A model generated the notes under the pieces. The model was not told the origin of the DNA, ran no database searches, and saw only the letters and a program-made list of their open reading frames with translations. Below are positions 5,667-17,526 of a stretch of 41,794 nucleotides of DNA, one piece after another. The position numbers and the translations under genes are program-made. Position 1 is the stretch's first letter. Each line of letters begins with the position of its first letter. Source of the stretch: Candidatus Thioglobus sp. (GTDB taxonomy: Bacteria > Pseudomonadota > Gammaproteobacteria > PS1 > Pseudothioglobaceae); assembly GCA_028345055.1 (NCBI GenBank), contig JAOMCO010000010.1, forward strand, positions 1-41,794, written 5' to 3'.

Positions 5667-6017
5667 ATGAATTTGGATTGTACCCTGCAAGAAAACGTTA
5701 TCCCATGTCTAGATTTCTCAATCGAATTTCAATCCAATAAACTCATTTATCAAAAAGAATACACTAAACGACAACAGATCATTTATCTTCATATCCATCA
5801 TCTTCACGATAGAGAAGAGTGGGGATATCAAAAGATATCCAATTGGTTGAATAAGAGTTCCATATTGACCCATACAGGAAAGAAATGGTTCTCTTCATCA
5901 GTTATCTCAGTCTTAAAGAGAAAACACGAGAGAGATCTAGTGAATGAACAGATTAGAAATCAACACTTTCCAAGTAAGGTTTCTAAGTTTGAAGTGAATT
6001 ACTATATTTTTGATTGA
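5667..6017 (+). CDS. Small recombinase-domain-like DNA-binding protein
   Basis: A 116-residue protein whose central part, WGYQKISNWLNKS and HTGKKWFSSSVISVLK, matches the pattern of the Recombinase domain (PF07508-like) of large serine recombinases: a short helix, a TP-G-KKW turn and a recognition helix. The catalytic resolvase domain is absent. It is clearly homologous to the 95-residue protein at 17121-17408: both share GKKWF, SVLKRKHERD and a C-terminal K-KF---YY pattern. The ATG abuts glmS-end copy 3, and the gene reads inward. An excisionase-like or att-binding accessory role is an inference. The name and exact function are unknown. Confidence 0.55.
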   Translation: MNLDCTLQENVIPCLDFSIEFQSNKLIYQKEYTKRQQIIYLHIHHLHDREEWGYQKISNWLNKSSILTHTGKKWFSSSVISVLKRKHERDLVNEQIRNQHFPSKVSKFEVNYYIFD

Positions 6018-6022
6018 TTCTA

Positions 6023-6412
6023 CTAAAGAAATAATAAACTATGAATTATTCTTCCTGGCATTAATGTAAATGTTCCAGCAGTTATTAATGCTCCTAAATA
6101 AACTCCAATCATCGTGTACATGTGAGAATAACGGTATTTTATTTTTTTTGTTTCTTTAAATTTTCTTATACTCCATATAGCATATATTAATGAAATTAAA
6201 GTAAACGGTATCAGCAAATGAATTGTTGAAAATTGACCAGGATTTAATGATTGAATAAAAACTGCTGATATTGAAACAATTACTAAGAAAAGTATCCAAA
6301 ACCATCCTAAACGTTTATGTAAAAAAGTACCTTTCTTTTTTAAGAAAATTAATAAACCAAGAGGTAATGCTAGTATTGCAAAAATTGCATGAAAAAAGAT
6401 TATTGAATTCAT
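6023..6412 (-). CDS. DUF2306-like integral membrane protein
   Basis: A 129-residue protein with four hydrophobic segments (about residues 3-24, 36-55, 63-82 and 98-118). It has the hallmark His residues and C-terminal pattern of the DUF2306 family: KRLGWFWILFLVIVSISA, IHLLIPFTLISLIYAIW, YSHMYTMIGVYLGALITAGTFTLMPGR. The function of the family is unknown. It converges with the preceding small gene, only 5 bases separating the two stops, and lies inside the relic element, so it may be cargo. Confidence 0.6.
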   Translation of the reverse strand: MNSIIFFHAIFAILALPLGLLIFLKKKGTFLHKRLGWFWILFLVIVSISAVFIQSLNPGQFSTIHLLIPFTLISLIYAIWSIRKFKETKKIKYRYSHMYTMIGVYLGALITAGTFTLMPGRIIHSLLFL

Positions 6413-6447
6413 AACTGATTAACCAACTAATAGGGTGCCATAAGGAG

Positions 6448-6465
6448 TCACTCAACAGTGACGGA
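6448..6465 (-). repeat. glmS 3'-end copy 4 (left att of the 11 kb element)
   Basis: On the minus strand the codons are TCC GTC ACT GTT GAG TGA, Ser-Val-Thr-Val-Glu-stop. It encodes the same peptide as native glmS, with synonymous or stop-codon changes in all six codons. It also contains a small dyad, GTCACT-caac-AGTGAC (6447-6462). Confidence 0.75.
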
Positions 6466-6468
6466 ATT

Positions 6469-6482
6469 GATTTGAGAGTACC
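6469..6482 (+). repeat. Left inverted arm of the 11 kb element
   Basis: GATTTGAGAGTACC is repeated exactly in inverted orientation at 17496-17509. In large serine integrase systems attP is an imperfect palindrome, so the inward P arms of attL and attR appear as terminal inverted repeats. This fits what is seen. Confidence 0.7.
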
Positions 6483-6496
6483 TCTTTTTGACCACC

Positions 6497-8218
6497 TCAA
6501 TTCCGATGGTTTTTTTTTGCGGTGTTACCACGACCACCTTTGAGTTTTGCAAGTTCACCAACATCAAGTTCCTTGTTTCCTTTGATGACATTATATCCTT
6601 TTGATTTATTCTTATCATCTTCATAAACAACACTATCACCAACAATTGGTTGCTTGAAATGAACTACTATTTTATGACCAACTTGTTTCTCTACTTCATC
6701 TCTATTAAATGCAAAAGTTGGTGATACAACAATAGTATCAATCATTCCTTCTAATAGTTCAGTTGTAGGTTTTTCAAATCTCTTGCTAATATCATCACCA
6801 TATTTTGTAATCCAATCTATCCAATCCTTTTTATTGTCTAACTCATAAATCTCTTCCACCAGAGTTGACTTCTTATCTTCAAGACTGCCTTTTTCCTCAT
6901 CTAATGTCTTTTTAATTTGTTTGTATATTGCATCATCTGTTTTCTTCAACATATGATTGACTTCATTCGTTGATATAGACTTCACAGTGAGTTCTATCTG
7001 ATTATCTACTGATTTAATAGTTCTCTCTCGCATCTTCTTTTCTATATCAATCTGCGAACTATCAATATCTTTCTTTGACATCACATCTTGTTTAAATCTC
7101 TCTTTAAGAATAGAAGAATTTGTCATTACTGACTTCACTTGACTGACTACGAAATCATCAGTCATATCCATATTCATACTTCTTCTATTATTACACTCCG
7201 CTACATTCTTACCTTTCCAGTAATTGTGTTTTGAAGAACAAAGATAGACTTTTTTATTGACTGTCATTTTTACATTACCAGTAAGTTTCTCACCACAATA
7301 ACATACAAGAAAATCACTCAACAAAGATGTGAATTGCCTTCTATTGTTTCCAGTATTTTTCATATTCTTTGCTAACATTTTCTGAACTCTATTAAACATT
7401 GAGTGAGAAATGATTGCATCAAAACGAATATCAAATTCCTCACCACTCTCTTTGTCAGTCCATTTATATTCACCGAGATATACTCTGTTCTTCAACATTG
7501 TATGAAGTGTGCCAATACTCCATAACTTTGCCCTTCGTGGTTTAACTCCTAAACTATCAAGATGTGATTTAAGTTCCTTTATTGCTTTGCCTTGTGCATA
7601 CATAGAGAATACTTTTTTAACTATTGCTGCTTCTTCTTTATCAATAGTCCATTTCTTATCTACATTTGCATAACCGAAGTTAATCGTGCCTCCCATAAAG
7701 ACACCACTTTCGCCATTCTGTCGTGATAGATGTCTTTTGCCACTAACAGACACTTCTCGTCTTTGTTGTCTATCAAATTGTTGAACTGATGTAAGAATAG
7801 TGTCCAACATCTCATCTTTCGCATCATTAAAGTTTCTGAGGGATCCGTTTTCACCTTCATACACTTTCGTTTTCTTTGGGATGAAGTAATTCTTCTTCAC
7901 CAATAAATCTTCAATTGTGTTTCTTGTCCAACGACTGCGTGAGTAGTACCAAATATTTTTGATACGACCAATTCGTATTCCCTCTTTCAATTCTTCATAA
8001 ACTGGTCTAACTGAACTGACAGATGAAAGACCACCTTCATTCATCTCAACATATTTCAGACCAAGTTTGTCTGCTACCTTTTGACCAAGATGTCTTTGAT
8101 TTTCAATTGAATGACCTTCATCAACTTGCCCTTGTGTTGAAACCCTCAAATAACAGAATAGACTTTCAACTTCTGCGACATTATTAACTGGGGCTGTGTT
8201 TCGTTTTGCGTTTGCCAT
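6497..8218 (-). CDS. Large serine recombinase (site-specific integrase)
   Basis: A 573-residue protein with an N-terminal resolvase domain (FCYLRVSTQGQVDEG, the catalytic Ser in RVS; then the arginine cluster WYYSRSRWTRNT). A recombinase domain follows around residues 185-300 (INFGYANVDKKW, KLWSIGTLHTMLKNRVYLGEYKW). A zinc ribbon (FLVCYCGEKLTGN with later Cys pair) and a C-terminal coiled coil rich in Lys/Glu complete it. This is the full large-serine-integrase layout. The ATG is one base after the stop of the small resolvase, implying translational coupling. A run of nine A (minus strand) lies near the 3' end. It presumably catalyses integration at the glmS end. Confidence 0.9.
   Translation of the reverse strand: MANAKRNTAPVNNVAEVESLFCYLRVSTQGQVDEGHSIENQRHLGQKVADKLGLKYVEMNEGGLSSVSSVRPVYEELKEGIRIGRIKNIWYYSRSRWTRNTIEDLLVKKNYFIPKKTKVYEGENGSLRNFNDAKDEMLDTILTSVQQFDRQQRREVSVSGKRHLSRQNGESGVFMGGTINFGYANVDKKWTIDKEEAAIVKKVFSMYAQGKAIKELKSHLDSLGVKPRRAKLWSIGTLHTMLKNRVYLGEYKWTDKESGEEFDIRFDAIISHSMFNRVQKMLAKNMKNTGNNRRQFTSLLSDFLVCYCGEKLTGNVKMTVNKKVYLCSSKHNYWKGKNVAECNNRRSMNMDMTDDFVVSQVKSVMTNSSILKERFKQDVMSKKDIDSSQIDIEKKMRERTIKSVDNQIELTVKSISTNEVNHMLKKTDDAIYKQIKKTLDEEKGSLEDKKSTLVEEIYELDNKKDWIDWITKYGDDISKRFEKPTTELLEGMIDTIVVSPTFAFNRDEVEKQVGHKIVVHFKQPIVGDSVVYEDDKNKSKGYNVIKGNKELDVGELAKLKGGRGNTAKKNHRN
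8174..8196 (+). repeat. Spaced motif copy 1 (CGACA-N11-GGCTG)
   Basis: It lies inside the first codons of the large recombinase gene, 22 bases from its start. Left flank is TG instead of AA. Confidence 0.55.
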
Positions 8219-8219
8219 T

Positions 8220-8807
8220 CTAAACTCTTATAGATTGCATTTTAAGTGTGTGTTGAACTGAACCAAGTGATACATCTACTTCCTTGCAAATGCCTCTGTA
8301 AGACAATCCTTGAGTTCTTAATGCGACAATTCTATCTCTCTGTTCTTGTGAGATGAGTTTGCCTTTCCCCCATTTGCCTCCGTTAGTTCTAATTCTATCA
8401 ATTGCTTCTTTCTGCCTTGAAATCATCATATCTCGCTCTAATTGAGAAAAAATTGATATGAAGTTCGCAAAGATTTTGCCTTGTGAATTACTAGTGTCTA
8501 CACTTTCCTTGACTACGAACAGATGTACACCACATTCTTCAAGAGAATGAATAGTATTCACAACTTGGACAATCTTCCTTCCTAATCTATCTAATGCGAA
8601 AACGATTACTCTATCAAACTTTCGTAATCGTGCATCTTCAATCATCTTTTGTAATTGAGGGCGAGTGTCTTTGACGCCACTCACTACCTCTTTATATTCA
8701 CCGACACAATCCCAACCTAACAGTTCAATCTGTTTGTCTAGTGCTTTTGTTTGGTTTTCGTAGTCCTGTTTTGAAGTGGATACTCTCTGATATTTGACAA
8801 CTCTCAT
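8220..8807 (-). CDS. Small serine recombinase (resolvase/invertase family)
   Basis: A 195-residue protein starting at MRVVKYQRVSTSKQ. The ATG at 8807 follows AGGAGG with 4 bases between, which decides this start over one eight codons upstream. The resolvase catalytic domain is intact: RVS catalytic Ser, GVKDTRPQLQKMIEDARLRKFDRVIVFALDRLGRK, then SQLERDMMISRQKEAIDR on the E helix. A C-terminal helix-turn-helix follows (ISQEQRDRIVALRTQGLSYRGICKEVDVSLGSVQHTL). The size and order match Tn3 resolvase/DNA invertase proteins. It is followed one base later by the large serine recombinase, forming a two-recombinase operon. It could resolve multimers or invert segments of the element. Confidence 0.88.
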   Translation of the reverse strand: MRVVKYQRVSTSKQDYENQTKALDKQIELLGWDCVGEYKEVVSGVKDTRPQLQKMIEDARLRKFDRVIVFALDRLGRKIVQVVNTIHSLEECGVHLFVVKESVDTSNSQGKIFANFISIFSQLERDMMISRQKEAIDRIRTNGGKWGKGKLISQEQRDRIVALRTQGLSYRGICKEVDVSLGSVQHTLKMQSIRV

Positions 8808-8898
8808 AAGACCTCCTGTAAAGTAGAACATAATTTCAATTCAGTATAACATATCCGAGGTGAATTAAAAGAAAGTTCCTGTTTTATTCCATATCTTA

Positions 8899-8921
8899 AA
8901 CGACATTTGTCGCTATGGCTG
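8899..8921 (+). repeat. Spaced motif copy 2
   Basis: AACGACA-N11-GGCTG in the divergent spacer between the resolvase and the DUF3102-like gene; the left part forms an imperfect dyad (TGTCG). Confidence 0.8.
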
Positions 8922-8934
8922 TATGGTATTCTTT

Positions 8935-8957
8935 AACGACACTTTCTATTGAGGCTG
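8935..8957 (+). repeat. Spaced motif copy 3
   Basis: It lies exactly 36 bp after copy 2. Its GAGG also forms the ribosome binding site of the gene starting at 8961 (GAGG-CTGCAA-ATG). Confidence 0.8.
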
Positions 8958-8960
8958 CAA

Positions 8961-9719
8961 ATGATTAAAGACAATGAATTCTTAAAAGAAATATCAACAA
9001 AAGGTCTGTATTCAACTGATATGAGAGGCAAACCAATGACTGTTGAGAGTTTCTATGATGCAATAAGTGTAATCAATCAAAAGTCAGAACAACTTCAAAA
9101 CTTTGCAAACTTGGGTTTCTACAAGGTCGGTAAATTACTTGCAAAGGCAAATGATGAACTTGGAAAGGGCGATTGGGGTAAGTTAAGAAAGAAAATTCAC
9201 GAAGGTGGGTTGCATATCAAGACACAAGAACGATATATGGCAATTGCAAGAAACCCAAACATAGAACTTAACTATGCAAAGTTACCCGAACAATGGACTA
9301 CTTGGTTGAAACTCGCAAAACTAGACCAAGAAGATTTTGACAAAATTCAACATCTAATCAGTAAAGATATGAAGTGGAGTGATGTTGCACCATTGCTAGA
9401 TGAGAAATCATCATCATATAGAGAGATATTTGCTTCAAATGATAAACCACATCATAAAGAACTATTCGGTCTGCAATTCAATACAGAAGTGGGAACTAAA
9501 AGACACTTAAAAGAGTTTCAAGAATTTTCAAAAGAAGTAAAAGAACTTACTAAAAAGTATTCGTTCATCAAATTGAACAAGAAAAACTATTATGACAAGA
9601 CTGAATACTTTCTTACTCACGATGAAGTAGAAGATGACACAACTATGGCAGAGGCAGAAGGCGAGAGTAAATCAATATTTAAGAAACAGTATCAGTCATC
9701 AACGAAGATTGATATTTAA
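8961..9719 (+). CDS. DUF3102-like protein
   Basis: A 252-residue protein. The ATG at 8961 follows GAGG with 6 bases between, so it is preferred to an upstream TTG at 8949. Residues 40-90 (NLGFYKVGKLLAKANDELGKGDWGKLRKKI, then HIKTQERYMAIARNP) follow the DUF3102 pattern of a helix, a G-W step and a helix-turn-helix-like QERYM segment. Next comes LPEQWTTWLKLAKLDQEDF, as in phage and plasmid proteins of this kind. The C-terminus is acidic and charged. DNA binding is likely; the precise role is unknown. It is flanked on both sides by copies of the spaced motif (copies 3 and 4) and leads the plus-strand operon with the methyltransferase. Confidence 0.55.
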   Translation: MIKDNEFLKEISTKGLYSTDMRGKPMTVESFYDAISVINQKSEQLQNFANLGFYKVGKLLAKANDELGKGDWGKLRKKIHEGGLHIKTQERYMAIARNPNIELNYAKLPEQWTTWLKLAKLDQEDFDKIQHLISKDMKWSDVAPLLDEKSSSYREIFASNDKPHHKELFGLQFNTEVGTKRHLKEFQEFSKEVKELTKKYSFIKLNKKNYYDKTEYFLTHDEVEDDTTMAEAEGESKSIFKKQYQSSTKIDI

Positions 9720-9742
9720 TACGACACTTTTGAATTAGGCTG
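9720..9742 (+). repeat. Spaced motif copy 4
   Basis: It fills the 26-base gap between two plus-strand genes and provides the ribosome binding region of the second (TTAGG-CTGCAA-ATG). Confidence 0.8.
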
Positions 9743-9745
9743 CAA

Positions 9746-10798
9746 ATGTCATTACTCACATCTCAAGGCAATCTTAAAAGTCAAACTATAACTAATGAAG
9801 TATTGATTGATAAGAGAACACATAAGATTGTTAAGTATTGGCAGAAAGTAGGTTTTCCCTATATTGATACTGATGAAAAATTCAGACAAGATAAGTTTGA
9901 TGCATTTCTAAAAGTTGATGATATGAATTCATTAGACTTTAACAACAGGTCATTCAAGTTCAATAATGCAGGTCTTGCCCTTGCCTGGTCTTATCATCCT
10001 CACGCATTTGAAGTTCAATGCAATAATCAAAAATCACCAATGGATGTATTCAATGATTACGATACTTTCTCAAAAGGCATTAAGAAAACATTGAAGGGCA
10101 GTTTCTTCAAGAAAAGGTCATTTGAAGAACTGATGACAAAGAACGAACAAACGAATGAAATGATACGAACAGTATTAAGACGAGTATCGGGTGCTCAAAT
10201 GGTTTCAAATTTTAGACCTGTAACTGCATCTGCACTTTACAAGTTATTCTGTGATAAGAACGATACAGTTTGGGATATGAGTTGTGGGTGGGGCGGTAGA
10301 CTTCTTGCATCAATCAAGGCAGAAATAAACTACATTGGAACGGATCCCAACACTCAAACACAAAAAGGACTTAAAGAAATGGTAACGACATTCGGCAATA
10401 AGGCTTGTGGTTATGATTTACTCACAATGGGAAGTGAAGAATACCGACCAGATAAGAACAGTCTTGATTTTGCATTTACATCGCCACCATACTTTGATAC
10501 TGAAAAGTATTCTGAAACTGAAACAACTCAATCGTATCTCAAATATTCAAATATCAATACTTGGAAAGAGAACTTTTTAAGAAAGACATTAGAGAATGTC
10601 CATTATGGACTTAAACCTAATAAATTCTGTGCCTTCAATGTTGCAGATGTTAAATCATATGAAACATTTGAGAAAGATACTAAACAAATTGCAAGTGAAG
10701 TTGGTTTCAAATTAGTAGATACATTTGATTTACGATTATCAAGTCAGGCAAATGACTATAAGGCAGAACCAATATTCATTTTTAAGAAAGAACAATGA
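9746..10798 (+). CDS. DNA methyltransferase (amino-group, TSPPY type)
   Basis: A 350-residue protein with a SAM-binding motif DMSCGWGGRLLAS (residues 177-189), an acidic IGTDPN at the end of strand 2, and a catalytic TSPPYFD (245-251). This is the order motif I then motif IV, as in N6-adenine or N4-cytosine methyltransferases. The 170-residue N-terminal region is not recognised and could carry target recognition. No restriction endonuclease lies next to it, so it is an orphan enzyme, as is common in phages and satellites. It overlaps the following clamp-like gene by ATGA, so the two are translationally coupled. Whether it methylates the spaced motif found across the element is untested. Confidence 0.8.
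   Translation: MSLLTSQGNLKSQTITNEVLIDKRTHKIVKYWQKVGFPYIDTDEKFRQDKFDAFLKVDDMNSLDFNNRSFKFNNAGLALAWSYHPHAFEVQCNNQKSPMDVFNDYDTFSKGIKKTLKGSFFKKRSFEELMTKNEQTNEMIRTVLRRVSGAQMVSNFRPVTASALYKLFCDKNDTVWDMSCGWGGRLLASIKAEINYIGTDPNTQTQKGLKEMVTTFGNKACGYDLLTMGSEEYRPDKNSLDFAFTSPPYFDTEKYSETETTQSYLKYSNINTWKENFLRKTLENVHYGLKPNKFCAFNVADVKSYETFEKDTKQIASEVGFKLVDTFDLRLSSQANDYKAEPIFIFKKEQ
10384..10406 (+). repeat. Spaced motif copy 5 (intragenic)
   Basis: AACGACA-N11-GGCTT inside the methyltransferase gene, encoding TTFGNKA. Confidence 0.6.
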
Positions 10799-11523
10799 AA
10801 CATTATCTTACTGACAAGGATTTATTGATACTAGAACACATTGTTTTTGTTGCAGAGAAATCTGCCAAGATTATTCAATTCTATTTCAAGAAAGGCACAG
10901 AACAGACCTACATCACCCCCAAGAAAGACTTACTTGTTGCTTTTAATTTGTCAGAACCAATCGGGTTTGACTATCCTGTGAATGATTTGAAGAAGTTCTT
11001 AACGACATCTTCTGCTACGGCTGTGGACAGTGAAAAAAACACAGTAGATGTATCATCAATGGTCATTCACTCAAAAGATGATGAAGATAGTTTTATGTCT
11101 GAAATAGTTCAAGAGATTGACTTTACATTTGATGACCTTCAAACCAATCAACGATTGAAGAAATATAAACACTTAAACATTATGGGTGCGAATAAGAAAT
11201 GCATTTTTAGATACCAAAATCACGAGAAGTCTTGGTGGTTTGATGATGGCAACAAAGAAATAATAGAACACGGCAAATCAAGTCGTAAGTTTCGTTATGT
11301 TATTGCGAGAGAGAAATTAAGATTGCTACCAAATGACTACAAGTTAATTCTTCGCACAAGTTCTATTCAATTTCAATATAAACATTTGAACTATTACTTT
11401 CTTCCCGAAGTCAGTTGGCAAAGACAAAGTGTTAAAGATTGGACAAACGCATCATCAATAGTTACAGATGAACATCTAATTGCACAATATCGTAAAAAGG
11501 GTTATCCAAAAACGACAAGATAG
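10795..11523 (+). CDS. Probable T4 gp45-like sliding clamp
   Basis: A 242-residue protein, close to the 228 residues of T4 gp45. Two segments follow the T4-type clamp pattern as I remember it. IGFDYPVNDLKKFL (56-69) corresponds to the gp45 segment IDFDVAIYDLNGFL. FRYVIAREKLRLLPNDYKL (166-184), followed by a strand ending in HLNYYFLPE, corresponds to the C-terminal F-F-I-N-M-A-N-M-K-M-P-G-N-Y-K-L segment and its EHANYVVALE strand. The N-terminal LTDKDLLILEHI fits the start of gp45 proteins. T4 gp45 is the DNA polymerase processivity factor and the activator of late transcription. The gene is coupled by ATGA to the methyltransferase. The assignment rests on pattern matching without a search. 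Confidence 0.6.
   Translation: MKHYLTDKDLLILEHIVFVAEKSAKIIQFYFKKGTEQTYITPKKDLLVAFNLSEPIGFDYPVNDLKKFLTTSSATAVDSEKNTVDVSSMVIHSKDDEDSFMSEIVQEIDFTFDDLQTNQRLKKYKHLNIMGANKKCIFRYQNHEKSWWFDDGNKEIIEHGKSSRKFRYVIAREKLRLLPNDYKLILRTSSIQFQYKHLNYYFLPEVSWQRQSVKDWTNASSIVTDEHLIAQYRKKGYPKTTR
11001..11023 (+). repeat. Spaced motif copy 6 (intragenic)
   Basis: AACGACA-N11-GGCTG inside the clamp-like gene, encoding the low-complexity TTSSATAV just after the conserved first segment, probably a surface loop. Confidence 0.75.
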
Positions 11524-11533
11524 ATTTAGGCTG
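11511..11533 (+). repeat. Spaced motif copy 7
   Basis: It overlaps the stop codons of both the clamp-like gene (plus) and the convergent unknown gene (minus). Confidence 0.8.
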
Positions 11534-12419
11534 CACCGCTAAGAAACTTCCCATCACAAACATCTAATAAGATGCCTTTTGCACCTAATGAAGTAGAACT
11601 TCCATTTATCAATGAGTGCATTGGTTTACTAAAATCTTCATTTCCATTCAAATTGAATGAAGTTTTGTAATCAAATCGTATATATCCGTCTTTATGAGTA
11701 AGGATTTCTTCATTTGAGAGGGAATTATCTAAACGAAGTATCAATGCATTATATTTTGATAAAAGTGCGTCCTTATGAATGCTTCCAGTTATTGAGTAAG
11801 TCTTTTTCTTTGTAAGAATTTCATTCTTATTAGACTTCCGCCTGTCCTTGATTATTGAAGAAACAACTTTTAATATATCAGTCAATTTCAAAGTAGTATC
11901 AATTTGCAGAGTGATATGTTTTCTGTCTGTTGAAATCGTATCATTTTCTTCTAATACTTTGCAGAGTTCTTGACTAAACAAATGAGAGTGTGTTTTCCAC
12001 CATTCATCAAATGATTTAGTTAAGACTTCATCTAAATCCCATCCCTTGTATTTACTTCTCTTGACTTTTATCTTTTTAGTAACTCTATCTTTCACTTTCT
12101 CTTTAACAATTCTTCTTTGGAAATCAACAAGACTTTCATAATATCTATGTCTTTCTTGTTTCAATATTAGAACTGCATCTTGTTCTTCTAATTCCAATGC
12201 TAATTTCAAAAAAAGAAAGAAAATACGATATGCGTGAATAGTTTTTTCTAATACTTCATTGTTCTTAATTCTTCCTTCGTCTAAAAAACGATATTCTTTA
12301 CCTTTTTCCTTCTGTTTTTTCAATTCTTCACTCAAAACATCTCTATTTTTATTAGATATGCCTTTCTTAATTGCCTTGCTATAAGTGAGTTTTACTGGTT
12401 TTAAGGTTTGTAATGACAT
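11526..12419 (-). CDS. Hypothetical protein, charged, unknown family
   Basis: A 297-residue, lysine-rich protein with no signal peptide or membrane segment. The N-terminal half contains a predicted helical block (EKTIHAYRIFFLFLKLALELEEQDAVLILKQER) and a basic stretch KEKVKDRVTKKIKVKRSK. The middle has WDLDEVLTKSFDEWWKTHSHLFSQ; the C-terminal part looks beta-rich (YSITGSIHKDALLSKYNALILRLDNS, GYIRFDYKTSFN). I do not recognise it. It is transcribed against the neighbours and is bounded exactly by two same-orientation motif copies (11511 and 12540), like a cassette inserted backwards. Its last residues, SGAA, are encoded by the right flank of the motif. Confidence 0.5.
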   Translation of the reverse strand: MSLQTLKPVKLTYSKAIKKGISNKNRDVLSEELKKQKEKGKEYRFLDEGRIKNNEVLEKTIHAYRIFFLFLKLALELEEQDAVLILKQERHRYYESLVDFQRRIVKEKVKDRVTKKIKVKRSKYKGWDLDEVLTKSFDEWWKTHSHLFSQELCKVLEENDTISTDRKHITLQIDTTLKLTDILKVVSSIIKDRRKSNKNEILTKKKTYSITGSIHKDALLSKYNALILRLDNSLSNEEILTHKDGYIRFDYKTSFNLNGNEDFSKPMHSLINGSSTSLGAKGILLDVCDGKFLSGAA

Positions 12420-12539
12420 ATTTTAATTATATCGCATTTTAGATATACATTTTACCCAGAAAAGAGAATATTTGTCAATCAGAGTATAATATTACATATA
12501 GAGAGTGAGAAAGTAAGTAGAGAAAAAAGAAAGAAATAG

Positions 12540-12562
12540 AACGACAATTGTCGTTGAGGCTG
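12540..12562 (+). repeat. Spaced motif copy 8 (perfect palindromic left part)
   Basis: The first 16 bases, AACGACAATTGTCGTT (12540-12555), form a perfect palindrome followed by GAGGCTG. It lies in the divergent spacer upstream of the ADP-ribosyltransferase gene. Confidence 0.85.
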
Positions 12563-12599
12563 AAGAAAGAAAGATTTATTAACTAACCGAGAAAATATT

Positions 12600-13790
12600 A
12601 TGAATAGAGAACAAAGAAGAAGATTGAAAAAGAGAGTTCAAAAGATTAGATTGTTTGACTATGACCACAATCTTGAACAATTAGACCTTGAGTGGAAAGA
12701 CATTCCAAAAAATAGACAAATTCCTGCATTAAAGTTCAAGAGATTATTAAAAGAATACAAGTTTGATATTCACAAGTTCTTACAGAACGGCAACAAAATG
12801 ATGCTGAAACACAATTGTTCTTATGATGAACATTGGTTAGATGAGAATATTTACAACTGTCTTCATTTCTATCTTGAATTACAAAAGTTTCGCAACAGAT
12901 TGTCTTTTGAACAAATACTTCAAATTGTTTCAATATTCGCAAATAAATTGGATCCCATCTCTGCAAGAGTTTTTGTTGTTCATTCTCTAGTTATGTTTGA
13001 CTTTCTAAAACCTAATCAAGTAGAAATGTTAGACAAAATCAAAAAAGAAGTTTTAAGTCGTAAAGATTATGATGAAGATGAGTTCTATGAAAGAGAAGAA
13101 CTATACAAGGCGTTTATACAAAACAAAGAACTTCAAAATCTTCCTCCTTCATTGAGTTACATAGAAAGAATGAATGAACAGAAGAAAGTAGTTGCAAAAA
13201 TTAAAAGTTCTAATCTTGAAAGTAGTTTTGATAATGAAGACGACTTTGATGCCTATTATGACGATAAACCTTATGTTGTTGTCTATCGTGGTTTTGCAGT
13301 TCACGAAGGTGAATGTATAAGAAAGTTGGCGGCAATTGAACAAAGTCCAAAGAATGAAAACATTCTTGATGAAATGTCTAATGAAGTCAAAGACTTTTAT
13401 AACCAAAGTCAATATGCTGGTCGTGGTGTTTCATACACTTTTGATAAGAACATCGCATTGACTTTTGCGTTTAGAACTATGAATGAAATGCGTTTTCTGG
13501 CGCCACACGACATCAAACTTCGTGCCTGTGTTGCAAAGTATGTAGTCAAGAAAGAAGACATATTTGCATACTGTAATGGTCGTAGTGAGAGAGAAATAAT
13601 TGTCAATAGTGTAGATGAGTTTGATGTTCCAGTTGCACTTGCAAATTATGAATTCTTTACTAACGAAGATGGTGAGTTCGACAAAACTGGAATGCTTAGT
13701 CAACCACAGTTTAGAAAGAGTGCGTATGAAGATTATGATGACTACGCTAAACACTTTAAGAACACAAAGATTGAACGAGTGTTCAACTAA
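12600..13790 (+). CDS. Probable ADP-ribosyltransferase (R-S-E class)
   Basis: A 396-residue protein. The C-terminal 180 residues show the three marks of R-S-E ADP-ribosyltransferases in order. The NAD-binding Arg is in VVVYRGF (R230). The S-T-S-like strand is GVSYTFDKNIALTFA (S278-Y-T280), where an aromatic scaffold follows. The catalytic Glu-x-Glu is in RSEREIIV (E330-R-E332). Exn-E proteins of this layout modify arginine in target proteins. The N-terminal 200 residues are helical and charged and not recognised; no signal peptide is present, so action is intracellular. T4 uses Alt and ModA/ModB to alter host RNA polymerase and other proteins; a similar role against host or helper phage is inference. 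The gene is bounded by motif copies at 12540 and 13796. Confidence 0.6.
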   Translation: MNREQRRRLKKRVQKIRLFDYDHNLEQLDLEWKDIPKNRQIPALKFKRLLKEYKFDIHKFLQNGNKMMLKHNCSYDEHWLDENIYNCLHFYLELQKFRNRLSFEQILQIVSIFANKLDPISARVFVVHSLVMFDFLKPNQVEMLDKIKKEVLSRKDYDEDEFYEREELYKAFIQNKELQNLPPSLSYIERMNEQKKVVAKIKSSNLESSFDNEDDFDAYYDDKPYVVVYRGFAVHEGECIRKLAAIEQSPKNENILDEMSNEVKDFYNQSQYAGRGVSYTFDKNIALTFAFRTMNEMRFLAPHDIKLRACVAKYVVKKEDIFAYCNGRSEREIIVNSVDEFDVPVALANYEFFTNEDGEFDKTGMLSQPQFRKSAYEDYDDYAKHFKNTKIERVFN

Positions 13791-13795
13791 TCAAT

Positions 13796-13818
13796 AACGA
13801 CAACAACTGCTACGGCTA
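13796..13818 (+). repeat. Spaced motif copy 9
   Basis: AACGACA-N11-GGCTA, 5 bases after the ADP-ribosyltransferase stop; the right arm runs into AGGAGG. Confidence 0.75.
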
Positions 13819-13889
13819 GGAGGCAACAACATACAAAAACTTACGATTTACAAAACTAATAATAATGAATGTCAAGGAGACAAATTGAA

Positions 13890-14120
13890 ATGAAGAAAAA
13901 AGATAAAAAAGTAATAGTGTTAAACAAAGAAATTGAAATAAAAGAACTTCCATCAATGTTACGAGGAAGAGTGATTGAGATATTAGGTGACAAAAAGATG
14001 TCTGTTGATGAGAAGAAATCTCTGCTTAAAGATGCATACGACATAGTTTTTACTTACGACTTAAAACTTAGGTTACGAGAAGAAATGTGTTCTGCGACAA
14101 TTTTGAAGGAGGCTGCATAA
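13890..14120 (+). CDS. Small basic hypothetical protein
   Basis: A 76-residue protein starting at MKKKDKKVIVLN. The ATG at 13890 follows AAGGAG (13874-13879) with 10 bases between; an in-frame ATG seven codons upstream overlaps that site and is less likely. The sequence has a short strand-helix pattern (IEIKELPSMLRGRVIEILGD, MSVDEKKSLLKDAYDIVFTYDLKLRLREE). No family is recognised. Its 3' end overlaps motif copy 10 and the start of the next gene by one base (TAATG). Confidence 0.5.
   Translation: MKKKDKKVIVLNKEIEIKELPSMLRGRVIEILGDKKMSVDEKKSLLKDAYDIVFTYDLKLRLREEMCSATILKEAA
14093..14115 (+). repeat. Spaced motif copy 10
   Basis: CGACA-N11-GGCTG overlapping the end of one small gene and supplying AAGGAGG, 7 bases before the ATG of the next. 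Confidence 0.7.
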
Positions 14121-14293
14121 TGGCAAGACAAATGAAAATGACAGGTAGTAAAAAGACTGTTAAAAAAATGATAAGAGTTAAGAACTGTCTAAAACGAAAA
14201 GGCAAAAGTAATTCTAAACATTATTACAACGAACAAGAGTTTCATCATAGAGTTCCTAAGTTTATTAAAGAAGAATTGAAGAACGCTGCTTAA
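14120..14293 (+). CDS. Small very basic hypothetical protein
   Basis: A 57-residue protein, MARQMKMTGSKKTVKKMIRV onward, with about a third Lys/Arg, then a tail HYYNEQEFHHRVPKFIKEELKNAA. The ATG at 14120 is preferred over one at 14087 because AAGGAGG precedes it by 7 bases. A nucleic-acid-binding role is possible from composition alone. It overlaps the previous gene by one base (TAATG) and is bounded exactly by motif copies 10 and 11. Confidence 0.5.
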   Translation: MARQMKMTGSKKTVKKMIRVKNCLKRKGKSNSKHYYNEQEFHHRVPKFIKEELKNAA

Positions 14294-14314
14294 CGACATT
14301 AATCGTTGAGGCTC
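14292..14314 (+). repeat. Spaced motif copy 11
   Basis: AACGACA-N11-GGCTC, overlapping the stop codon of the small basic gene; AACGA and TCGTT form a dyad. Confidence 0.8.
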
Positions 14315-14406
14315 TGCCCTCATTCTGCGTATTCAAGTGCGTAGAAAAATATTCTAAAAAGAGTTAAATAAAACAAAAATTTACTACCTGTTTTTCGGCG
14401 AACCCT

Positions 14407-14414
14407 TATAAATA
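14407..14414 (+). promoter_or_regulatory. TATAAATA box resembling a T4 late promoter
   Basis: An exact TATAAATA, the T4-type late promoter core read by gp55 with gp45 as activator. It lies directly before the palindrome at 14420. Chance occurrence in AT-rich DNA is likely enough that this is only suggestive. Confidence 0.3.
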
Positions 14415-14419
14415 TTATG

Positions 14420-14435
14420 TATAGAAAGTTCTATA
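14420..14435. promoter_or_regulatory. Perfect palindrome, operator-like
   Basis: TATAGAA-AG-TTCTATA, 7-bp arms around 2 bases, placed six bases after the TATAAATA box. This is a natural position for a dimeric repressor such as the ribbon-helix-helix protein encoded at 15356. Confidence 0.4.
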
Positions 14436-14628
14436 AGGTTTTAACAAATTAAACAAATGCACGGTTTTAATGAGTTTCGGTCTCTATAAAGTCTGCACCA
14501 TATCGGTATAACAAGTGGTTTCCCACTGTAAATCAACGAGTTATATTTGATATGTCATTGAAAAATAATATAGATGCCAGAAGAATGGTATGCCAGATAA
14601 CACCCGAATAAAAACCAAATAAAAGATT

Positions 14629-15312
14629 ATGAATATAGACCAAATAAAGAATAAAACAAAAGAGATTATGAACGCAGTTCATTCACGAGGTGAAGTGAAT
14701 ACGCACCTAGACCACGCACTAGAACGAACACTAACATCCGACCAGATAAAACAGAGAGATGCACTTCTTCAAGATAAGAGAGTTCGTTTGAATTACCCAT
14801 TGACTGCCAATACATATATGAATAAATCAATTCACCATCTTCTCATTCAAATGAAGAAACTCTCTCTACGGGTTAATTACAGATTAGATAAAAACTTTGA
14901 TAGATGGAATTCTAACGACAATTCTCTTGGGGGCTTGAACCGAGTTTCGTTCTATTGTTATTTTCAAAAGTGTCTAGGTAATAATCATTGCCACTATTAC
15001 CTAGTTATTCCGCCTAAACATAGTATTGAAAATGTAATTAAAGTCATTAGAGAAGAATGGATTAAATTGGATCCTCGTGTTCAAAAAATGTTAGATATGA
15101 ACCAAACAGTAATAGGTAAGAATGCAATCTTAAAAGAATGGTTTATTAAAGAGTATCAATTGACGAATAAGACTTATTCAACTTGGTGCAAACATCTAGT
15201 TGATGGCGATGTCAAAAGATACTTAGGTTATTCAGTTAGAGAATACATAGTGAATAAGGATGATATGAAAGTTCCCAAGAACGACCAATATGAGACCTAT
15301 GAACTAATATAA
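14629..15312 (+). CDS. Possible HUH-type replication initiator
   Basis: A 227-residue protein. Residues 118-128, NNHCHYYLVIP, form a His-Cys-His step on a hydrophobic strand, as in motif 2 of HUH Rep endonucleases. A strand RVSFYCYFQKC precedes it, and candidate catalytic tyrosines follow (Y176 in EYQLTNK, Y183 in TYSTWCK). ENVIKVIREEW after the HUH step resembles the helix found in such proteins. The family is not certain, and a classic Y-x-x-K motif is not clear. The gene follows the only long noncoding region of the element, as expected for a Rep with its origin. If correct, the element can replicate as a circle after excision. Confidence 0.4.
   Translation: MNIDQIKNKTKEIMNAVHSRGEVNTHLDHALERTLTSDQIKQRDALLQDKRVRLNYPLTANTYMNKSIHHLLIQMKKLSLRVNYRLDKNFDRWNSNDNSLGGLNRVSFYCYFQKCLGNNHCHYYLVIPPKHSIENVIKVIREEWIKLDPRVQKMLDMNQTVIGKNAILKEWFIKEYQLTNKTYSTWCKHLVDGDVKRYLGYSVREYIVNKDDMKVPKNDQYETYELI
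14914..14936 (+). repeat. Spaced motif copy 12 (intragenic)
   Basis: AACGACA-N11-GGCTT inside the Rep-like gene, encoding NDNSLGG in what looks like a linker before the strand leading to the HUH step. Confidence 0.55.
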
Positions 15313-15315
15313 ATA
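15308..15315 (+). promoter_or_regulatory. Second TATAAATA box
   Basis: Exact TATAAATA overlapping the stop codon of the Rep-like gene, 41 bases before the ATG of the ribbon-helix-helix gene. It could drive that gene, with the same caution as for the first box. Confidence 0.3.
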
Positions 15316-15355
15316 GTAGTGTAAGACATTTAACTTCCACTTAATTATCACCAAT

Positions 15356-15517
15356 ATGCAGAATATCACCAGTAAGAAAGTAAGTAACAAGAAGAAGGTT
15401 TGTCTTTATTTTGATAAAGATATATACAAAGACTTCCAAAATGTATGTGAAAGACGAGATGCACCAGTTTCTCGTGTATTGACAAGAATGATGGACAAAC
15501 AACTAAGGGCAATCTAA
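15356..15517 (+). CDS. Small ribbon-helix-helix (CopG/Arc-like) protein
   Basis: A 53-residue protein, MQNITSKKVSNKKKV, then a strand VCLYFDKD, helix YKDFQNVCERRDA and helix PVSRVLTRMMDKQLRAI. Strand-helix-helix with a hydrophobic strand alternating with polar residues is the ribbon-helix-helix fold, and the SRVLTRMM helix fits CopG-type proteins. Such proteins bind palindromes as dimers and control plasmid copy number or their own operon. The upstream palindrome at 14420-14435 is a candidate operator. The gene follows the Rep-like gene after 43 bases. It is too short for a default ORF cutoff. Confidence 0.6.
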   Translation: MQNITSKKVSNKKKVCLYFDKDIYKDFQNVCERRDAPVSRVLTRMMDKQLRAI

Positions 15518-15599
15518 TAAGTAAGAACCGTCTTGTGGGTTGTTAGACAACGCCACCGAAAATGGGATATCAAAATTACAACCCCAAGACACCTAATCA

Positions 15600-15622
15600 A
15601 ACGACAAATTAAATTATGGCTG
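15600..15622 (+). repeat. Spaced motif copy 13
   Basis: AACGACA-N11-GGCTG; the ATG of the 36-residue ORF lies inside it (ATGGCTGCA). Confidence 0.8.
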
Positions 15623-15726
15623 CAACTAAACAATCCAAAATTAAAAAACAAGTATTAACAATTAAACGAATGATAGATGATTGGCAACAGTATCTTGCCT
15701 ATCTTGATGCAAATGCAAAAAAGTAA
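15616..15726 (+). CDS. 36-residue hypothetical protein
   Basis: A short reading frame, MAATKQSKIKKQVLTIKRMI onward, predicted as one helix (VLTIKRMIDDWQQYLAYLDANAKK). Its ATG is inside a motif copy, and it overlaps the next short frame by 20 bases. It is weakly supported and could be non-coding, although the overlap arrangement is typical of compact phage-like operons. Confidence 0.35.
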   Translation: MAATKQSKIKKQVLTIKRMIDDWQQYLAYLDANAKK

Positions 15727-15838
15727 ACAACAAATCAAAATAGAACAACTCTTAAAAGAGGCAGAAAGGGAATCTAGTTCAAGTAAGAGGCAAGACCTTA
15801 TATTGCAAATGATAAGACTTTTGTCTGAAATATCGTAG
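15707..15838 (+). CDS. 43-residue hypothetical protein
   Basis: A short frame, MQMQKSKQQIKIEQLLKEAE onward, in another frame from the previous one and overlapping it. It is predicted to be helical and charged. The stop codon is the first stretch of a hairpin terminator at 15838. Support comes from this arrangement only. Confidence 0.35.
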   Translation: MQMQKSKQQIKIEQLLKEAERESSSSKRQDLILQMIRLLSEIS

Positions 15839-15873
15839 TGTATTAAACCTTGCGTAATACACTCAATTTTTGA
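15838..15873 (+). terminator. Probable Rho-independent terminator
   Basis: GTGTATTA (15838-15845), 9-base loop, TAATACAC (15855-15862), then TCAATTTTTG. An 8-bp stem with a T run closes the plus-strand transcript of the small genes. Confidence 0.6.
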
Positions 15874-15944
15874 TGTCTTACAGATACTATTCTAATAGGG
15901 TTTCAATATTCGTAATTTAGGGGGGTTCTAATACACCCCAGTTA

Positions 15945-15967
15945 AACGACAATTGTCCTTGAGGCTC
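15945..15967 (+). repeat. Spaced motif copy 14
   Basis: AACGACA-N11-GGCTC, located just downstream of the minus-strand NERD gene's stop codon. Confidence 0.8.
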
Positions 15968-15974
15968 TGAACAC

Positions 15975-16634
15975 TTAATTCAAAGTAAACCTACATTTAG
16001 GATAACCACTACATCCTATAAATTGAGTGCCTGTTCTTATTCCTTGTTTAACAGTTCTTTCTACTAATGCAGAACCACATCTTGGGCAGACTGTTTCAGA
16101 TGAATGACGATTATGTAATGATTGAATATGTTCTCTTTTAGTAATCTTGCCATCAGTATCAATCAGTAAACTACATATTCTTCCAATTTCATCATTAGAT
16201 AAAACTGTGTCTTGAAATTGTTTGATGTAACGACCAAGACCAGAAGATAGAACATTTGAGGGTAGTTCAGTTTTGAATTTTGAGTCACCAACAAAACAAA
16301 CAACAGTTTGAATATGCGTTTCTTCTACATCAAGATACTTTGATAAGACTTTCTTTTGTCTAAAGGTTTGTTTAAGTGGGTTTTGAAATGAATACTTGTT
16401 TTTGTAAACTACTTGTGTCCATTTAGATTGAGTTTCAGAACCATAAATCCATCCCTTCAAATTCTTTGTTTCAACTATGAACAGTCCAAATGGTGATACT
16501 AGAATATGGTCTATTTGAGTAGTGCCATTAGAAGATGGAATAATGACATCATTAAATCTTCGGTAAAGTTCGTTGTTTAAACTTAACCATAATTTAAATT
16601 GTGTTTTCTTTTCGCCAAACCATCCTTCAAACAT
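15975..16634 (-). CDS. NERD-domain protein with topoisomerase-type zinc finger
   Basis: A 219-residue protein. Residues 1-120 match the NERD nuclease-related domain: MFEGWFGEKKTQFKLW, IDHILVSPFGLFIVETKNLKGWIYG (core Asp and E-x-K), then KQTFRQKKVLSKYL. The C-terminus is a four-Cys zinc finger like those of bacterial topoisomerase I (CPRCGSALVERTVKQGIRTGTQFIGCSGYPKCRF). The start at 16634 matches the family's usual beginning. An in-frame upstream extension to 16775 would run through a motif copy and is less likely. The probable role is DNA binding or cleavage. Such proteins occur in defence islands and plasmids; the exact function is unknown. Confidence 0.75.
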   Translation of the reverse strand: MFEGWFGEKKTQFKLWLSLNNELYRRFNDVIIPSSNGTTQIDHILVSPFGLFIVETKNLKGWIYGSETQSKWTQVVYKNKYSFQNPLKQTFRQKKVLSKYLDVEETHIQTVVCFVGDSKFKTELPSNVLSSGLGRYIKQFQDTVLSNDEIGRICSLLIDTDGKITKREHIQSLHNRHSSETVCPRCGSALVERTVKQGIRTGTQFIGCSGYPKCRFTLN

Positions 16635-16657
16635 AGAATGTATTCTACCTTCAATTA

Positions 16658-16680
16658 AACGACACTTGTCATTTAGGCTG
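16658..16680 (+). repeat. Spaced motif copy 15
   Basis: AACGACA-N11-GGCTG, 24 bases upstream of the minus-strand NERD gene start. Confidence 0.8.
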
Positions 16681-16911
16681 CAATCACATTTCCCCAAATT
16701 AGTAGATTTATCAAAAATAGACATATCACTATGATGTTTTTCATAGATTACCTCTCTTGTTGGAATTAGACACACAGAAACACCCCCCTCGGAACTGAAC
16801 AGTATTCGTTTACTTAAACAAGGGTATCTCTTTTGAAATACATAACTACTAACTAGGTCAATTTAGTTCGTTTTGTATATGGATTTTTTGCCAGTATATT
16901 TTTGAGTGATT

Positions 16912-17121
16912 TTAGTAATCACACTCGCTATCAAACCAAGACTGACAAAAGAACTTAATATGTTTCTGTTCTCTCTTATTGAGTTTCTTGCGTTGGTAGT
17001 TCGTAAGAGGCGCTGGTGTGCATTTTGTGTAGATGACCGAATGAACTATGTCATTCTTAAAGATAATGCGAACACCATCATCCTTGATGATTGTATCTTC
17101 TTTGTTGTATTTCTTCCCCAT
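16912..17121 (-). CDS. 69-residue hypothetical protein
   Basis: A small basic protein, MGKKYNKEDTIIKDDGVRII onward, with a C-terminal NYQRKKLNKREQKHIKFF. Its ATG overlaps the stop of the upstream 95-residue gene (TAATG), so it is probably translated in a coupled fashion. That supports this strand over a plus-strand frame of similar length. No family is recognised. Confidence 0.45.
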   Translation of the reverse strand: MGKKYNKEDTIIKDDGVRIIFKNDIVHSVIYTKCTPAPLTNYQRKKLNKREQKHIKFFCQSWFDSECDY

Positions 17122-17408
17122 TAGTAAGTGTAGTATTTGATTGCGAACTTGCCTATTTTGATTGGGAACTCTTTATTTCGTATCTCTTGAATTCTAGTAT
17201 CTCTCTCGTGCTTTCTCTTTAATACAGAACTAACAGAAGTGTTGAACCACTTCTTACCTCGTGGCGTTGCCACTTCCCACTTGTTTAACTTATGTGCTAT
17301 TCGTCTGTAACCATAACCTTTATCGTGCAATGATTTAATCAATGTATAAAGAAACTGTTGATACTCTGTGTATGGATTACCTTGATAAGTCAAATTGTTT
17401 GACTGCAT
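17121..17408 (-). CDS. Small recombinase-domain-like protein, N-terminally disrupted
   Basis: A 95-residue homolog of the 116-residue protein at 5667: YGYRRIAHKLNK, PRGKKWFNTSVSSVLKRKHERD and the C-terminal KFAIKYY match. Upstream of its ATG the same frame continues with homologous residues GTIPHLEFTLE (17409-17441; compare NVIPCLDFSIE). It then diverges next to motif copy 16, with no start codon available. The original start therefore seems to have been separated by about 43 bases containing the motif. The gene sits at the right end of the element and reads inward, as its homolog does at the left end of the relic. An accessory recombination factor is an inference. Confidence 0.6.
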   Translation of the reverse strand: MQSNNLTYQGNPYTEYQQFLYTLIKSLHDKGYGYRRIAHKLNKWEVATPRGKKWFNTSVSSVLKRKHERDTRIQEIRNKEFPIKIGKFAIKYYTY

Positions 17409-17447
17409 TTCAAGAGTGAATTCTAAATGAGGTATTGTTCCAGAAAG

Positions 17448-17470
17448 AACGACACTTTCTGTTGCGGCTG
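17448..17470 (+). repeat. Spaced motif copy 16
   Basis: AACGACA-N11-GGCTG, 26 bases inside the right inverted arm. It coincides with the insertion relative to the homologous gene at 5667. Confidence 0.8.
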
Positions 17471-17495
17471 AGGAACTATCTTGATTTGCTAAAGG

Positions 17496-17509
17496 GGTAC
17501 TCTCAAATC
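17496..17509 (-). repeat. Right inverted arm of the 11 kb element
   Basis: Exact inverted copy of 6469-6482, immediately downstream of the glmS stop codon. Confidence 0.7.
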
Positions 17510-17526
17510 TATTCCACTGTTACAGA
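17509..17526 (-). repeat. glmS 3'-end copy 5 (native, right att)
   Basis: On the minus strand the codons are TCT GTA ACA GTG GAA TAG, Ser-Val-Thr-Val-Glu-stop, the functional end of glmS. Confidence 0.75.

Follow-up and report, generated by a model that had tools for sequence, protein, structure and literature searches.

Sixteen one-orientation motif copies and a trinucleotide missing from one strand in an integrated element of Candidatus Thioglobus

The DNA considered here (the window) is a stretch of 41,794 nucleotides, contig JAOMCO010000010.1 of Candidatus Thioglobus sp., which contains an integrated element (6469-17509) adjoining the 3' end of the host gene glmS. Judging by the small genomes of its family, the host may belong to a marine, symbiont-type group of gammaproteobacteria. 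Within this element we find 16 copies of a bipartite 23-nucleotide motif, AACGACA-N11-GGCTG, all of which lie on the plus strand irrespective of gene direction, and, across the entire element, not a single AGC on that strand. These patterns suggest that the 16 copies may be strand-specific DNA-processing signals, a reading to which we assign a probability of roughly 0.38, with nicking the most likely action and the starting of primers the second choice within the same class.

A first-pass annotation of the window had reported the motif, and its description held up on recounting. The core, CGACA-N11-GGCT, matches 16 times in the window, between 8176 and 17469, always on the plus and never on the minus strand, against a chance expectation of 0.05 and a maximum of one match in 100 dinucleotide shuffles. 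AA precedes the core in 13 copies and a G follows it in 11, and the spacer measures exactly 11 bases in all 16; gaps of 5-10 and 12-17 bases between CGACA and GGCT give no match on either strand of the element. The cores are perfect and the spacer bases diverged, with a weak dyad within the spacer, ACGACA-NN-TGTCGT (47 matching bases versus 24 expected). A weight matrix, trained on the same 16 copies that it scores, places these at 21 to 35.5 bits and the rest of the window at 14.5 bits or less, so that sites are all-or-none. Note that the 23-nucleotide copies are listed from their AA position and that CGACA, by which we name single sites, starts two bases later (8174 in the list corresponds to 8176):

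8174-8196, plus strand: motif copy 1, within the integrase gene
8899-8921, plus strand: motif copy 2
8935-8957, plus strand: motif copy 3, ending 3 bases ahead of the ATG at 8961
9720-9742, plus strand: motif copy 4, ending 3 bases ahead of the ATG at 9746
10384-10406, plus strand: motif copy 5, within the methyltransferase gene, gap-free against the Vibrio phage homolog
11001-11023, plus strand: motif copy 6, within the clamp-like gene
11511-11533, plus strand: motif copy 7, covering the stop codons of two convergent genes
12540-12562, plus strand: motif copy 8, with a perfect dyad, ACGACAATTGTCGT
13796-13818, plus strand: motif copy 9
14093-14115, plus strand: motif copy 10, at the end of 13869-14120 and in the ribosome-binding region of 14120-14293 (starts set by eye)
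14292-14314, plus strand: motif copy 11, covering the stop codon of 14120-14293
14914-14936, plus strand: motif copy 12, within the Rep-like gene
15600-15622, plus strand: motif copy 13, covering the ATG (15616) of a small open reading frame seen by eye
15945-15967, plus strand: motif copy 14, directly beyond the 3' end of the minus-strand NERD gene
16658-16680, plus strand: motif copy 15, directly upstream of the probable NERD start
17448-17470, plus strand: motif copy 16, with a counterpart in a decayed fragment of genome G009

As previously claimed, 12 copies lie at gene junctions and four within genes (8176, 10386, 11003 and 14916). The junction tally is made up of nine mostly noncoding sites (no more than 8 of 23 bases coding on our gene map), the one at the stop codon at 11523, the one in the last codons of 13869-14120, and 16660, which falls between genes provided that 16634 is the NERD start, as is probable from the matching start of an ortholog in another genome. 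With a coding fraction of 0.88 on the same map, none of 20,000 random placements favoured noncoding DNA as strongly. The sites are also evenly spaced (coefficient of variation 0.49, P 0.003; P 0.0001 when the numbers of coding and noncoding sites are held). Orientation ignores gene direction throughout, as the first-pass annotation had stressed; the two copies flanking the minus-strand NERD gene are on the plus strand as well. Where the copies fall inside genes they are overlaid on coding sequence: the methyltransferase copy (residues 213-221) aligns to the Vibrio phage enzyme gap-free, without an insertion, and others sit inside the clamp-like, Rep-like and integrase genes. We considered and rejected mobile 23-bp insertions, given that diverged spacers accompany perfect cores and that the methyltransferase copy replaces sequence without a gap.

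The motif is specific to the element. The host's own genome (1,314,976 bases in 54 contigs, 74% complete) holds 19 core matches: these 16, with their 16:0 orientation, and three singles on other contigs, in the remaining 1.27 Mb. Of the family's 83 genomes, 81 contain the core, at about the frequency of a reversed control pattern; the full AACGACA-N11-GGCTG occurs in six of the 83, with eight copies here and one in each of the five others. Gapped-motif discovery across four window segments, four earlier loci and 33 of 40 glmS-adjacent loci (the seven under 2.5 kb were dropped) gave a log10 P of -43 for the window, the next best results being -19 (repeat-rich genes, locus L030) and -9. Fixed spacing, confinement to one strand, restriction to the element and superposition on coding DNA thus lend good support to the earlier proposal of a directional signal read by a protein or enzyme. 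Two of the other suggestions made then are unlikely: an RNA-level signal, because orientation ignores gene direction, and a target of the element's methyltransferase, in that a bipartite site with an 11-bp gap lies outside what methyltransferases are known to recognise. An Rfam scan gave two matches, both far under their gathering scores.

The earlier description missed a stronger fact, namely that AGC is absent from the plus strand, from 6213 to 17572, and that the 16 motif copies account for every GGCT in the element, whichever strand is read. Shuffling the element's dinucleotides 200 times yields a mean of 83 and a minimum of 68 plus-strand AGCs; shuffling synonymous codons in 13 genes 300 times yields a mean of 50 and a minimum of 35. 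GCT on the plus strand numbers 51, 16 of these inside motif copies. An A precedes none of the 70 alanine codons in the seven plus-strand genes, compared to 13 of 39 in the six minus-strand genes, and the lysine, glutamate or glutamine codon ahead of alanine takes its G-ending form in eight of eight cases. AGC is therefore dodged through synonymous codons, which argues for selection rather than mutation. Since AGC is missing from the whole element and GGCT confined to the motif, part of the one-orientation rule belongs to the element as a whole. Words of four, five or six bases add nothing to the AGC/GCT asymmetry, all contexts of AGC being gone.

How unusual is this exclusion? Among loci of at least 8 kb, this element alone lacks a trinucleotide on one strand; whole loci were used for this comparison, so that flanks diluted a GC-poor relative (L028, see below), which was passed over there. 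In 175 loci totalling 2.03 Mb, some of which overlap, stretches free of AGC on one strand reach 9,116 bases in L028 and 4,162 in L029 and L100, which overlap each other; no other locus exceeds 1,947. By strand-asymmetry score the element (10^-15.6) ranks third, after TTG/CAA in phiKMV (10^-30.6) and TAG/CTA in T7 (10^-17.1); these genomes, larger and with all genes on one strand, outscore the element, yet neither misses a triplet. Type II palindromes are depleted in the element too (CATG 0 of 41, GATC 4 of 38, TCGA 1 of 26, ACGT 0 of 19, GTAC 4 of 23, GGCC 0 of 8), without comparable loss in the flanks, where GTAC on one side (5 of 14) is the strongest case. The element thus probably often meets restriction as double-stranded DNA. 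AGCT and GANTC are also strongly lost between 6469 and 17509. The exclusion signatures described here exceed the avoidance of single restriction sites seen alongside.

The element and its genes are as follows (E, expectation value):

6469-17509: integrated element, bounded by inverted repeats 6463-6487 and 17491-17515, adjoining the glmS 3' end
6497-8218, minus strand: large serine recombinase (integrase; PF07508/PF00239, phrog_95 E 3e-72)
8220-8831, minus strand: small serine recombinase of invertase/resolvase type (PF00239 E 3e-36, phrog_125)
8961-9719, plus strand: uncharacterised protein, DUF3102-like by eye only, with no Pfam match
9746-10798, plus strand: N4/N6-type DNA methyltransferase, 36% identical to a Vibrio phage protein
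10795-11523, plus strand: relative of the T4 gp45-like sliding clamp, C-terminal part (PF09116 E 1.7e-4, below the cut-off; phrog_223 E 5.6e-8)
11526-12419, minus strand: uncharacterised protein
12600-13790, plus strand: uncharacterised protein, ADP-ribosyltransferase-like by eye only
14629-15312, plus strand: possible HUH replication initiator (Rep-like), HCH motif by eye, no family match
15356-15517, plus strand: small ribbon-helix-helix-like protein, ParG-like (PF09274 E 0.017, below the cut-off)
15975-16634, minus strand: NERD domain protein with a topoisomerase-type zinc ribbon, 75% identical to the NERD protein of a GC-poor element in genome G026
17121-17408, minus strand: short protein resembling part of a serine recombinase (PF07508 E 5e-6)

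Both recognised recombinases are of the serine type. The best PDB match of the clamp-like protein is gp45, with an E of only 0.29. Single-sequence structure models were useless (predicted local distance difference test scores, pLDDT, of 38 and 41), the one of 14629-15312, at 38, being unusable. The ends of the element are inverted rather than direct repeats (25 bases, 92%), which is unusual for the att pair of a serine integrase. Repeated remnants of a small recombinase-domain protein lie near glmS, at 5667-6017 in the window and at 250-411, 2850-3199 and 5277-5561 in L030; the site has the look of a hotspot, with element ends left behind as fossils.

What might account for motif and exclusion together? 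The facts call for an absolute distinction between strands and for a core as short as GCT/AGC, and it is for this reason that we favour a signal processed on one strand. Recognition of double-stranded DNA is by itself blind to strand, save via opposed pairs of sites (the logic of Type III enzymes) or via nicks on both strands. Imagine that the element, in its mobile phase, meets an enzyme, its own or that of a helper phage, that acts on one strand and reads a short core, GCT on the plus and AGC on the minus strand, most strongly in the full motif. The resulting one-strand breaks could be resealed, or could serve to initiate replication, packaging or transfer. A core on the opposite strand would turn nicks into double-strand breaks, and would hence be harmful and purged; on this proposal, every AGC would be removed from the plus strand and all 16 sites would come to point one way. 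Under the second choice, the sites would prime the copying of a displaced plus strand. The steps that lead from the sequence to an enzyme are ones that we infer.

A number of points weigh against this proposal. Nicks, primers and a bound protein at the sites are predictions, and none of the element's proteins was recognised as a nickase or primase. A nickase reading three bases would also nick the 35 other AGCs on the minus strand, so that the role of CGACA would go unexplained; CGACA by itself shows no avoidance in the element. The nick consensus sequences of phages tf and phiKMV are long ones, not triplets, and tf, T7 and phiKMV have no trinucleotide missing from one strand. Priming of the T4 type reads GTT as well, whereas GTT and AAC are neither purged here nor much strand-biased (229 and 270), and it is not obvious what harm GCT on the minus strand would do. 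The element's relatives, described below, exclude another word (GC, on both strands) and carry no motif, so that the link between motif and exclusion rests on one element. Finally, the likeness to phiKMV came to light because its CGAC consensus was looked up, and is a lead rather than proof.

Promoters, operators and stoperators act through transcription and should therefore follow the genes. One scenario is that restriction from outside, by Type III logic with its head-to-head pairs, imposes the orientation, the motif being an ordinary regulator site whose GGCT obeys the same rule as the rest of the element. There is known precedent in T7, discussed in a review (PMC3874151), where we count the EcoP15I word CAGCAG 0 times on the plus strand and its complement CTGCTG 36 times; here, likewise, one orientation of a word remains (AGC 0, GCT 51 on the plus strand), the losses of CATG, GATC, TCGA, ACGT and GTAC indicate heavy restriction pressure on the element, and nine of the 16 sites lie, by our own count and with several starts set by eye, no more than about 75 bases ahead of a gene start on either strand. 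Yet the Type III sites tabulated in that review span five to six bases, whereas every context of AGC is gone here, and even tiling together with sites at 3' ends and within genes is unlike operators. A search for the Type III Mod marker PF12564 matched none of 29 genus genomes and 3 of 83 family genomes, with the caveat that none of 14 control genomes gave a match either. We regard outside restriction as rather unlikely. Promoters for a single-subunit RNA polymerase of the T7 or phiKMV kind, supplied by a helper phage, would suit the 23-bp length, and T7 promoters are annotated on one strand, at junctions and, in one case, within gene 4; all three copies of the phiKMV nick consensus fall in annotated putative phage promoters, and in three of our sites an ATG starts 8-9 bases past the first G of GGCT. 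Five of the 16 sites (8176, 11513, 15947, 16660 and 17450), however, are followed on our choice of gene by a minus-strand gene or by host glmS, and the absence of AGC would go unexplained. PF00940, the polymerase family, had no match in the host's own genome, 74% complete as it is, with the caveat that the same search found none in 14 controls. Note that all genes of T7 and phiKMV run one way, so that the orientation of their promoters is no test. On balance, phage promoters strike us as quite improbable.

Simple promoters, stoperators and integron cassettes fit worse. Stoperator-like roadblocks, dispersed asymmetric sites on which a repressor silences an integrated element, would match the dispersal of asymmetric sites over junctions here. 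In phage D29, scanned with the stoperator consensus at up to two mismatches, such sites tend to follow the direction of the genes, with ratios of 19:2 for the minus arm and 3:6 for the plus arm, whereas ours do not, and the missing AGC again goes unexplained; the idea is very improbable. Cassette boundaries, put forward in the first-pass annotation, would make the element an integron-like array driven by a serine recombinase: genes are flanked singly (8937-9722, 11513-12542, 12542-13798 and 15947-16660), all sites are direct repeats, as with the one-orientation attC sites that flank integron genes one by one, and the small serine recombinase gene lies beside two sites. Against this, four sites are intragenic, one of them aligned gap-free in the methyltransferase, so that the suggestion is left unsupported; a related element is without the sites, there is no attC architecture, and the recombinases are of the serine class rather than the tyrosine integrase IntI. 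A cassette array is barely credible.

Relatives of the element bear on how general word exclusion might be. Within the family, the integrase has relatives only in genomes G026 (30% identity) and G055 (41%), each associated with a GC-poor stretch near glmS:

L028, genome G026, contig C4, 1260-11050: element adjoining glmS, with a related integrase and NERD protein
L029, genome G055, contig C1, 3000-9700: segment whose start lies some 5 kb downstream of glmS, with a 41% identical integrase fragment

The L028 integrase is 28% identical over its length and its NERD protein 75%. This element has three GC dinucleotides in 9,791 bases versus about 237 expected, and ten of its eleven open reading frames of at least 90 codons (one antisense frame was omitted) encode three alanines in 2,773 residues; the part of glmS beside it has 31 in 360. 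One of its proteins, of 933 residues with a single alanine, resembles a family B DNA polymerase by eye and has no Pfam or PHROG match, and PF23343 (HUH-related) matches the element with E 5.7e-6, just under the cut-off. The 6.7-kb segment of L029 holds 19 GC versus about 177 expected, and its proteins of 986 and 506 residues, resembling Type I restriction-modification subunits by eye, contain no alanine. We do not claim that GC-lacking genomes or alanine-free proteins are unreported. In a scan of 209 loci with 3-kb windows, GC loss was confined to the L028 and L029 elements; other flagged words were mostly TAG/CTA and CG triplets, with some GGG, GAC and CTC/GAG, and AGC here. NERD was rejected as a cause of exclusion: G012 and G071 harbour elements whose NERD proteins share 74% identity with the G026 one, yet these elements are free of any general exclusion.

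Two further observations concern other loci. A 1-kb stretch near glmS (L257, 8001-9000; genome G071, contig C25) has 3 GC versus 20 expected and is perhaps what is left of a third element that excludes GC, this time in a different genus. CTC/GAG is strongly depleted in two loci from viral contigs, L150 and L187 (CTC, for example, 4 versus 55 in 3 kb of L150), possibly a further case of word avoidance.

The first-pass annotation asked whether related elements conserve the spacing; CGACA-N11-GGCT is absent from both L028 and L029 and occurs once in a decayed fragment in G009, which leaves little to compare. The G009 match, one of the five single full-length ones mentioned above, is no accident: it lies beside a homolog of 17121-17408, the DNA there can be aligned to the right end of the element, and it differs from copy 16 in the spacer alone. 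The fragment also obeys the strand rule, but with only 2.8 GCT expected this is no evidence. No helper phage or relative with the same array emerged from five DNA patterns run against viral contigs and one against genome contigs. One of the viral-contig patterns hit at least 80 loci, with one match each among the matches listed; scans of whole records, covering all 22 viral records of one pattern search and six of the 28 genomes of the genome-contig search, found two copies at most in any viral record, and in none of the six bacterial genomes was one strand in excess. The integrase had no relatives in genome contigs, and among plasmid records 90 carry recombinases under 60% identity to it. The clamp-like, DUF3102-like, Rep-like and 12600-13790 proteins had no relatives in the searches made, one of which covered 369 genomes of the class, a sample of a larger group, nor had the large L028 protein any in viral contigs or phages.

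We tentatively entertain the possibility that, while mobile, this family of elements survives an enzyme that it carries or meets, and that would cut or nick at a given short word, by having purged its DNA of that word entirely. One lineage would have lost GC from both strands, which would leave its proteins nearly free of alanine, and the other AGC from a single strand, with the 16 copies kept as working sites. If so, the element would be immune because the target word is absent while using that very word as a signal, a combination that would amount to a self/non-self system of a new kind. The exclusion would name both the word read by the enzyme and the strand acted on, making a direct hunt feasible. 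Should the sites be nicked, they would be relevant to the one-strand nicks, so far without explanation, of T5-, phiKMV- and LUZ24-like phages; should they be primer starts, constraints on where a primase can start would have shaped the genome.

How does the element compare with known systems? As the review cited above (PMC3874151) sets out, Type III enzymes require their sites in head-to-head pairs, and T7 evades them by keeping to a single orientation. As here, the word that T7 lacks on one strand contains AGC and is frequent on the other; it is a six-base word with no 23-nucleotide motif, whereas here a bare trinucleotide is gone in all contexts. The T4 primase gp61 starts at 5'-GCT or GTT (PMC10359460). 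It thus reads a bare GCT, strand-specifically and on single-stranded DNA, and the element encodes a relative of the T4-type clamp; GTT is, by contrast, unaffected here, and a primase was not found. No bipartite motif is known in T4. The promoters of T7 and phiKMV resemble our sites in being about 23 bp long, on one strand (11 exact cores on the plus strand of T7, none on the minus), at junctions and within genes, with start codons close behind. The distance from CGAC to GG is 12 here and 13 in phiKMV, and 8 in the T7 consensus. Unlike in these phages, the element's genes lie on both strands; no polymerase gene was found, by a search that drew a blank in its controls as well. The promoters of two other phage groups, as printed in the respective papers, do not resemble the motif.

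The phages with localized nicks offer a further parallel. Nicks of unexplained function are described for T5, phiKMV-like and tf phages (PMC3517423). These are lytic genomes with other consensus sequences, whereas ours is an integrated element in which nicks are predicted; CGACA-N11-GGCT itself occurs 0 times in phiKMV, 0 times in tf and once in T7. The phiKMV nick consensus, CGAC-N5-CCTACTCCGG, nonetheless starts with CGAC, ends with GG and is similar in layout to our site; two of its three copies read ACGAC-N13-GGC, one of these AACGAC. The tf nick core, TACTRTG, occurs 14 times on the top strand and never on the bottom (few would be expected by chance), its two-mismatch relatives being nearly equal on both strands. 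In all these phages, as here, short repeats on one strand lie at gene starts and within genes, and in tf they do so even where genes are reversed: all 14 nick sites are on the top strand, two of them in minus-gene territory, so that the sites keep to one strand regardless of genes in both cases, 14:0 in tf and 16:0 in our element.

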